Positions 46,498 through 48,510 of a stretch of DNA of 64,000 nucleotides are shown piece by piece. How positions within the stretch are numbered: the stretch's first letter is position 1; each line of letters begins with the position of its first letter. The translations under genes and the position numbers were made by a program. Origin of the DNA: Sulfurospirillum tamanense (GTDB lineage Bacteria > Campylobacterota > Campylobacteria > Campylobacterales > Campylobacteraceae); the NCBI RefSeq assembly GCF_016937535.1, contig NZ_JAFHKK010000005.1:1-64000 (forward strand). Direction: 5' to 3'. A model generated the notes under the pieces. It was given only the letters and a program-made list of their open reading frames with translations. It ran no database searches and was not told the origin of the DNA.

Positions 46498-46630
46498 ACG
46501 CGGTCATATTAGCTCTATGAGCGGATTTTTGAGGCCATGAAACGCTCAGGATGAGCGTTGGCCGAGAACCCTCGGAGATTTGTCAGGACGACAAATCGAG
46601 AATGAGCGAATAGGGCTAATACGACCGCGT
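46498..46630. repeat. 133-bp multi-stem inverted-repeat element (MITE or structured RNA candidate)
   Basis: Outer arms 46498-46516 and 46612-46630 pair at 17 of 19 positions. Inside are three perfect or near-perfect hairpins: GGCC..AACGCTCA with TGAGCGTT/GGCC (46533-46563), CCGAG/CTCGG (46562-46575) and GATTTGTC/GACAAATC (46577-46597). Together they form a four-way-junction-like fold. It lies between priA and ispG. No reading frame is present. Confidence 0.8.
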
Positions 46631-46665: not shown

Positions 46666-48510
46666 TCAGGAAAACGACACGGGGTCCATGTCGACTTCCA
46701 CCAAGCGTCCTTTACATGTAAGGCCCGCTTGCACTAAAGCGCGTGGGGAGTCTGAGCGCAGTAACACGTGATAGCGGTATTTGCCCGCGATTTTTCCAAT
46801 GTCGGAGGGGCCGTGTCCCACCACTTCTACGCGCTCTTTATACGCCGTAAGTTTGCCTAGCACTTCTTCCACGACTTTCTTACATGTAAGCTCATTGGCG
46901 TGAGAAACAAGCAAGCGCAGCAACCGTTTAAAAGGCGGATAAAGGCCTTCGCGGTGGGGTTTTTCTTCTTTTAAAAACCGTTCAAAATCGTCCATGTACG
47001 CGTGGAAAAATTCAGGATTCAGGGTTTGGAGGATGACTTCTCCTTCGCCTTTTCGCCCACTGCGCCCTGCGATTTGAAGGGCTAAGGCTAAGGCTTTTTC
47101 CCGCGCGCGAAAATCCCCTTGAGCCAGTTGCGAATCTAACCCCAAGATGACCGAAAGGCCGATGTCGTGATAATCATGCCCTTTACTGAGCATCTGCGTG
47201 CCCACTAGCACGTCTATCTCGCGGTTATTAAAGCGTTTTAGGAGAGACTTTAACTGCTTTTCCGTGCGCACTTCGTCGCGGTCAAATTGTTCAAAAACAA
47301 TCTGTGGCAAGGTTTCGCGCAAGGTTTCTGTGACCTCAGAAGTGCCGATGCGACTCGCTTCCATGGTTTCACTTTCGCATTTTGGGCAGGTTTTAGGGAT
47401 GGGGCTAGCAAAGTTGCAATAGTGGCACACAAGGGCGTTTTTGTGTTTGTGTAAGCTCATAGACACCGCGCAAAAAGGACACTCAAACCGCTCCCCGCAC
47501 CCTTTACATGTAAGGTGTTTAAAATGGGCGCGCGTGGGGACAAAAACGATGGCTTGGCGTTTTTTTTCTACCACTTGCGCGAGTTTAGCGATGATAGTAG
47601 GGGTGAGTTCATGGTGCCCAGATTCGTACACGATGCTACGCGAACTTTGAAAGTAGGTCCCACGAAGGCGCATGGTGGGGAGTTTGTCGTAGCTTGTGAG
47701 GCTTGGAGTAGCAGACCCCAACACCACCCGCGCGCCCACGTACGTGCCAAGCATCAAGGCGACATCTTTGGCGTTGTAGCGGGGTCTTGAGGAGGATTTA
47801 TAGCTCTCATCATGCTCTTCGTCCACCACGATGAGTCCCACTTCGCGCAAGGGCAAAAAGAGCGCCGAGCGCGGGCCCGCGACGATGCGCACTTCCCCTG
47901 TGTGAATGCGTGCGAGGATGTTTTGCTTTTGGACTTTGGAGAGTTTGGAGTGCCAAATGGCCACGCGCACCCCAAAGTGCCGCTCTAAGCGCTCTTTCAT
48001 TTGGGGGGTGAGGCCGATTTCTGGCATGAGAAAGATGGCGCTTTTTCCTTCACACAACACCTCTTGCATCAAAGCGAGGTAAATCTCCGTCTTTCCGCTT
48101 CCGGTGTCGCCAAAGAGCAAGGCTTTGTCGTGTTGGAGTAAAAAGGCTTTGGCTTTTTGTTGAGCGAGCGAGAGGGCTAACGAAGCGTTACATGTAAAGG
48201 GAATGGGAGGTGTTTTTTCTTTAGGGTAAGGCACCATGAGTGCCAACGCTTCGCCCAAAGAAGACCCATAATACTCGCTAATAAACTTCGCGCACTGCAT
48301 CTGCCACGAGGCAAACACGTCGCCCAAATCTTGGCTAATCTCTTTACATGTAAAGCTTGGCTTCTCGCACGCCTCCACCACCACCGCCTCTTTTTCGCGC
48401 CCTTGTAAGGGAACACGCACGCGCGTACCGATGGCTAACGCTTGGGATGAAGCGTAAGTTAAACACGGCTGCGCAGAGCCTAGAAGTGCAAGAGTGTAGT
48501 AGTGTGTCAC
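46666..48510 (-). CDS. priA: Primosomal helicase PriA
   Basis: The 614-residue protein restarts stalled forks. It has an N-terminal DNA-binding domain (about 1-110), Walker A FGDTGSGKTEIY, the DEEH box VVDEEHDESYK and eight zinc-binding cysteines from HLTCKGCGERFECPFC to CPKCES. GTG at 48510 overlaps the upstream pilin stop as GTGA. Five TTACATGTAA copies lie in the gene, and one encodes the first zinc cysteine (47504). A T-rich run after the structured element may end the transcript. Confidence 0.97.
   Translation of the reverse strand: MTHYYTLALLGSAQPCLTYASSQALAIGTRVRVPLQGREKEAVVVEACEKPSFTCKEISQDLGDVFASWQMQCAKFISEYYGSSLGEALALMVPYPKEKTPPIPFTCNASLALSLAQQKAKAFLLQHDKALLFGDTGSGKTEIYLALMQEVLCEGKSAIFLMPEIGLTPQMKERLERHFGVRVAIWHSKLSKVQKQNILARIHTGEVRIVAGPRSALFLPLREVGLIVVDEEHDESYKSSSRPRYNAKDVALMLGTYVGARVVLGSATPSLTSYDKLPTMRLRGTYFQSSRSIVYESGHHELTPTIIAKLAQVVEKKRQAIVFVPTRAHFKHLTCKGCGERFECPFCAVSMSLHKHKNALVCHYCNFASPIPKTCPKCESETMEASRIGTSEVTETLRETLPQIVFEQFDRDEVRTEKQLKSLLKRFNNREIDVLVGTQMLSKGHDYHDIGLSVILGLDSQLAQGDFRAREKALALALQIAGRSGRKGEGEVILQTLNPEFFHAYMDDFERFLKEEKPHREGLYPPFKRLLRLLVSHANELTCKKVVEEVLGKLTAYKERVEVVGHGPSDIGKIAGKYRYHVLLRSDSPRALVQAGLTCKGRLVEVDMDPVSFS

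Follow-up and report, generated by a model that had tools for sequence, protein, structure and literature searches.

What kind of element is the 133-bp inverted repeat that fills the gap between priA and ispG in the 64-kb window (the whole stretch of DNA analysed here)? The first-pass annotation, made from the letters of this stretch, offered two answers, a miniature inverted-repeat transposon (MITE) or a structured RNA in the leader of ispG, and considered a simple terminator inappropriate. The element goes beyond both a simple MITE and a leader of ispG. It is one copy of a dispersed family with a conserved fold, and its hairpin loops resemble the binding sites of the RNA-binding regulator CsrA.

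The element between priA and ispG

Both the arms and the inner hairpins can be seen in the sequence at 46498-46630, as originally observed. The plus strand of this interval folds at -66.5 kcal/mol, compared with -37.9 ± 3.7 kcal/mol for 200 dinucleotide shuffles, none of which is as stable (0/200; z = -7.8). The element lies 13 bp from the ATG of ispG (46484) and about 35 bp from the stop codon of priA. Both genes are encoded on the minus strand, and the conserved strand of the element is the plus strand, antisense to both. Its parts are as follows, R2 being a covariance model of the family.

46498..46630, plus strand: whole element, arms and core; R2 match at 46499-46629 (117.6 bits, E 3.7e-21), fold z -7.8, seven more copies in the genome
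46498..46517, plus strand: 5' arm of the outer stem P1, locus-specific in sequence; pairs with 46611-46630 and is complementary, though free, in every copy
46518..46524, plus strand: UGAGCGG, inner end of P1 and conserved GG; the GG is invariant in 20 diverse copies
46533..46563, plus strand: inner hairpin H1 (P2); 4 of 5 modelled pairs are changed on both sides in a compensatory way
46547..46553, plus strand: CAGGAUG, apical loop of H1 and candidate CsrA site 1; has the sequence of the CsrB repeat (PMC7652899), with the GGA predicted fully unpaired
46570..46576, plus strand: CCUCGGA, the same in all copies compared (20 of 20); base pairs form between its CUCG and the CGAG at 46597-46600
46577..46597, plus strand: inner hairpin H3; 97.9% of cells paired, double changes in 5 of 7 pairs
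46584..46590, plus strand: CAGGACG, apical loop of H3 and candidate CsrA site 2; the family loop is A-N-GGA-N closed by C-G
46598..46605, plus strand: GAGAAUGA, invariant 3' strand of the junction in the alignment of copies
46611..46630, plus strand: 3' arm of the outer stem P1; pairs with 46498-46517, with covariation

The four stems of the initial description are about right by count, but the third inner hairpin is doubtful. Besides two strong inner hairpins, the window copy has a weak one of three pairs that competes with the CUCG/CGAG stem at the base of H3, and the wider alignment favours the latter. Most copies of the family have no T tract downstream, in keeping with the view that this is not a simple terminator.

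The window also contains 31 sites of another palindrome, TTACATGTAA, between 163 and 62478, where 0.05 are expected; examples are 46712-46721, 46880-46889 and 47504-47513. This highly iterated palindrome is frequent in the remaining genome too; it may be bound by a protein or belong to the HIP-like repeats.

Copies and distribution

By BLASTN, eight copies are detected in the window genome (G000) and eight in another genome of the same genus (G001), and none among 98 other genomes of the family and order. The covariance model R1, derived from 15 copies, detects 8 in G000, 14 in G001 and further ones in nine other genomes of the order, all near the same length. In a scan of 84,980 species genomes, a degenerate pattern matches 30 contigs. 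Model R2, built from 20 diverse copies, confirms 28 of these, all from Campylobacterota; the two unconfirmed matches carry the labels Novosphingobium and Blautia. Other element-bearing genomes belong to Sulfurimonas, Sulfurospirillum, Hydrogenimonas and further Campylobacterales. Searches of Rfam at gathering and relaxed thresholds return no relevant match, CsrB/RsmZ-type families included, and plasmid and viral collections return none, the pattern used on the viral collection being too strict on loop length. The family is previously uncatalogued and, in the R2-confirmed scan of the 84,980 species genomes, found only in Campylobacterota.

Element-bearing genomes carry about 8-25 copies each. 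Assemblies probably break at the hairpin, so that these counts are lower bounds, including the number for G001 (at least 14). Two G001 contigs (L058 and L059) end a few bases from sites at which G000 has a copy.

Conserved core and covariation

All copies share a core of about 90 nt with a 5' GG, two hairpins and the invariant frame CCUCGGA...GAGAAUGA. An outer stem of 20-22 bp surrounds, in this order, GG, H1, CCUCGGA, H3 and GAGAAUGA. The sequence of the outer stem varies between copies, while its complementarity stays. Double changes occur at all 21 of 21 arm pairs in the window-genus alignment (15 copies) and at 31 of 38 pairs in the cross-genus alignment (20 copies), for which the covariation score is 0.82 as against 0.20 after shuffling and no more than 0.18 for slid structures. 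The outer stem, H1, H3 and the CUCG/CGAG stem below H3 also emerge independently from RNAalifold. The first-pass annotation, which had recommended covariance modelling and a search for further copies, was prepared to abandon its reading for a single copy without covariation or expression; on the first two counts, what is found is a multicopy element with strong covariation.

Within the arms, G-U pairs far exceed A-C mismatches in three separate groups (18:6, 16:2 and 21:4), which implies that the plus strand is the strand selected to fold. This asymmetry points to a single strand, of RNA or of DNA, and away from a double-stranded cruciform. Together with the covariation, it speaks for the structured-RNA half of the original proposal.

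GGA loops and CsrA

H3 ends in a hexaloop, the composition of which could be read in 45 distinct copies. The first base is A in 43 of them, the second is free (16 A, 13 T, 9 G, 7 C), the following GGA is kept in 44, 42 and 44 copies by position, and the final base is mixed; a C-G pair closes the loop in 19 of 20 copies. The H1 loop is mostly a pentaloop, AGGAN. Among the parsed loops, GGA is present in 53 of 57 for H3 and in at least 35 of 56 for H1, where ACGA occurs in 6/56 and other loops in more; some of these non-GGA H1 loops stem from decayed copies or mis-parsing. The Hydrogenimonas copies were gathered by their arms and not by their loops, and GGA is found in every H3 loop read among them, so the pattern search cannot by itself account for the conservation. 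As a background, GGA lies in the loop of 4 of 134 simple hairpins in the window. The GGAs of H1 and H3 are mostly predicted to be unpaired, as is the CGGA of the invariant junction in many copies.

The published CsrA/RsmE site is CANGGANG, and the H3 loop A-N-G-G-A-N closed by C-G agrees with it. Hairpin loops with mAwGGAs and (C/A)A(A/T)GGA are what CsrA of C. jejuni selects (PMC6692469, PMC4894983), and CsrB is built from CAGGA(U/A/C)G repeats (PMC7652899), the very sequence of the two loops of the window copy, CAGGAUG and CAGGACG. The GGAs of H1 and H3 are 32-37 nt apart in every copy measured, which satisfies the distance of 10-63 nt over which a CsrA dimer can bind two sites (PMC7652899). 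Of the 11 element-bearing genomes, 9 encode CsrA, the window genome among them, and the other two are incomplete assemblies (79% and 89% complete). Most genomes without the element also have csrA, so that its presence discriminates weakly. The CsrA of the window genome keeps L4 and R44 and matches the RsmE/CsrA structures. On their sequence, the two loops are candidate CsrA sites, and the element may be an RNA that soaks up this regulator.

We consider it somewhat probable that the element is a mobile and self-insulating structured RNA of Campylobacterota, a module with a CsrA dimer as its binding partner. The plus strand, which may be transcribed, would fold so that the long outer stem of free sequence acts as a clamp and isolates the core from the host transcript or locus. 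The core would then present two C-A(N)GGA(N)-G loops, which a single CsrA dimer could grip together. At about 8-25 copies per genome, the elements may titrate CsrA and thus form a dispersed analogue of CsrB/RsmZ. Alternatively, individual copies may regulate locally by placing a CsrA clamp beside particular genes. Several observations are at odds with the CsrA reading. CsrA binding leaves the invariant CCUCGGA and GAGAAUGA unexplained, the H1 loop is not always GGA, and the stems of the element are longer than those of typical SELEX ligands. In addition, no promoter signal is seen upstream of the copies, the window copy is antisense to its neighbours, and the orientation of the copies is unbiased.

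Some of these observations would suit a transcribed, functional structured RNA that keeps its GGA loops for a partner other than CsrA, such as another protein, a ribozyme-like activity or RNA processing. CsrA does not need the invariant junctions, and ACGA or ACAA replaces the usual motif in some H1 loops. The free second base in A-N-GGA-N, however, corresponds to the degeneracy known from CsrA sites, and csrA itself is present, which makes a different partner the less likely choice. A two-site grip by CsrA is thus the most likely explanation, followed by the same RNA with another partner.

Campylobacterota have been described as relying on FliW and the flaA mRNA to counteract CsrA. C. jejuni and Helicobacter pylori, in particular, are described as having no CsrA-antagonising small RNAs (PMC4894983). 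A broader proposal, which we put forward only tentatively, is that Campylobacterota carry an RNA antagonist of CsrA in the form of dispersed, partly mobile two-site sponges, each insulated by a clamp stem that is rewritten but stays paired. If this is true, dispersed CsrA-loop RNAs in other members of the phylum would change the picture of a group without antagonist RNAs, and a regulatory RNA would be spreading by transposition, with binding sites added copy by copy.

Mobility

The clearest traces of movement come from a complete Hydrogenimonas-like genome (G063), in which extended arms are common to more than 20 copies; the boundaries could be set for 17 of them. Their ends are CACGGTACTTCAAG, and the copies share long terminal inverted repeats. 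The flanking 9-mers agree at a mean of 5.3 of 9 positions, as against 2.45 in mismatched pairs, with a peak at length 9; several duplications have 8 or 9 matches, and others lie in a 10-bp register. The element has transposed in Hydrogenimonas, generating target duplications of 9-10 bp. A search of G063 with the end motif for a partner transposon yields only the ends of element copies and isolated, chance-like matches.

In the window genus, no consistent target duplication is found among the copies. Six G001 copies are missing from the orthologous site in G000. The relative G012 has a clean unoccupied site, TTCTCTTTTA-TCTTTTTGTATATCTTAACACGC, where G000 carries the window copy, and by its length there is no duplication. 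The empty sites and duplications sought by the first-pass annotation therefore exist in G012 and G063, respectively, but the window copy itself lacks a duplication. Likewise, its MITE interpretation gains target duplications and long terminal inverted repeats from G063 and lacks the partner transposon there.

Target duplications, terminal inverted repeats, clean presence or absence between relatives and internal deletions in several copies would all be expected of an ordinary non-autonomous palindromic transposon without a host role, the fold of which serves transposition only or is a by-product. No transposon that shares the element ends was found in G063, and the behaviour of the arms also speaks against such an element.

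Arms rewritten around a conserved core

Between G000 and G001, orthologous copies show differences at 12/210 arm and 12/366 core positions. In paralogues within these genomes, cores that are 93% identical can go with arms of about 30% identity, which is the chance level. The inner stems agree at about 79% of positions in these paralogues, so the freedom of the arms goes beyond that of an ordinary stem. Across the window genus, arms are about 32-50% identical between copies. At a locus of the purH-dnaJ type, two Sulfurimonas genomes have cores of 94% identity, and the arm identities are 0.62 and 0.54, where random arm pairs give 0.53 ± 0.13. A core that is kept while its arms are at chance level implies that the arms are rewritten in steps with their pairing preserved. 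The G001 orthologue of the window copy (L037, G001:C71:500-578) has lost most of its core, and its arms are still perfectly paired, with one pair changed on both sides relative to the window copy. A 20-bp stem rewritten at an orthologous locus around a nearly unchanged core represents a natural experiment in palindrome evolution.

Three origins of the arms were considered and rejected. Gradual drift in the window genus does not account for 93% identical cores with arms of about 30% identity beside full-length orthologous cores of 95-98% identity with identical or nearly identical arms. Insertion of the core into pre-existing hairpins is contradicted by six unoccupied orthologous sites without a hairpin, one of which may be a deletion scar and several of which are divergent. 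Inverted duplication of the target sequence conflicts with the absence of the arms at unoccupied sites, except for about 10 nt in one. Also against pre-existing hairpins, solo hairpins of the element-arm kind are absent from the 400 kb of G000 that were read, and nearly every arm match in G063 has a partner at the spacing of the element.

Orthologous loci that keep the core and rewrite the arms, the would-be transposon ends, do not fit a MITE. Neither does the conservation of the core across families while the inner stems covary, nor the strand asymmetry of the arm pairs. We therefore regard a transposon without a host role as unlikely, and a little more so than an RNA with a different partner.

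Folded single-stranded DNA

The G-T over A-C asymmetry could also arise if the element were a hairpin moved as folded single-stranded DNA, as in IS200/REP-type or attC systems, and Y1 transposases are encoded in 9/11 element-bearing genomes. However, no credible copy adjoins any of the Y1 transposase or reverse transcriptase loci fetched, and the target duplications of Hydrogenimonas fit a staggered double-strand integration, which renders this route improbable. Two further candidates were dismissed. A retron or group II intron derivative finds no reverse transcriptase (RVT_1) in G000 or G001. A REP/RAYT system has the Y1 transposases in its favour, but their surroundings contain only weak palindrome matches. 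At L114 (G375) and L108 (G139), long palindromes of about 65 bp are found close to Y1 transposase genes and are perhaps REP-like repeats of these transposases.

Neighbouring genes

Copies share few neighbours and mostly adjoin unrelated genes. The same neighbours nevertheless flank copies in different genomes, some across families, namely ispG-priA, fabG-gpmI, the purH-dnaJ type and mnmG (L095, L039/L046, L047/L074 and L067/L079); the fabG-gpmI pair with its copy is common to different families. One Sulfurospirillum genome has a copy in the priA-ispG gap in the same orientation as the window copy. The priA-ispG loci of these two genomes may reflect old inheritance with loss or repeated insertion. 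At the ispG locus of 28 other relatives, intermediate ones included, neither R1 nor R2 gives a match. The orientation of copies relative to their flanking genes is unbiased overall (-/- 15, +/+ 12, -/+ 17, +/- 6), and an early impression that the sense orientation is avoided vanished as more copies came in.

A cis-acting leader RNA of ispG or of a priA-ispG operon, suggested by the 13-bp distance to the ispG start and by the Sulfurospirillum copy with the same gap and orientation, is very improbable, since the conserved folding strand is antisense to ispG, the multiple copies adjoin unrelated genes, the 28 other relatives have no match at ispG, and the consistent sense position before one gene family that marks a riboswitch or leader is not seen across copies.

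Comparison with known systems

ERIC, Correia/NEMIS and REP/BIME sequences are, like the element, short, intergenic, palindromic and multicopy, and target duplications in one genus add to the likeness. Unlike theirs, the terminal arms of the element are not shared between copies in most genera, its core is conserved across families, and no partner transposon is found. Compared by eye, integron attC sites are also folded, with a stem that keeps its complementarity and not its sequence; the conserved core and free arms of the element are the reverse pattern, and it is dispersed among housekeeping genes.

CsrB/CsrC and RsmX/Y/Z of Gammaproteobacteria resemble the element in that their hairpins present loops of the type A(N)GGA or CAGGA(U/A/C)G, with more than one site per RNA. 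In contrast to the arrays of these RNAs, the element has two (possibly three) sites in a fixed junction. It also differs in its many dispersed copies, its long sequence-free outer stem, its occurrence in Campylobacterota and its lack of an Rfam match. The leader of C. jejuni flaA, a CsrA-titrating mRNA of the same phylum, likewise has two ANGGA hairpin loops at a dual-site spacing (PMC4894983). Its sites are 21 nt apart and belong to one specific mRNA, whereas those of the element are 32-37 nt apart, dispersed and tied to no single gene.
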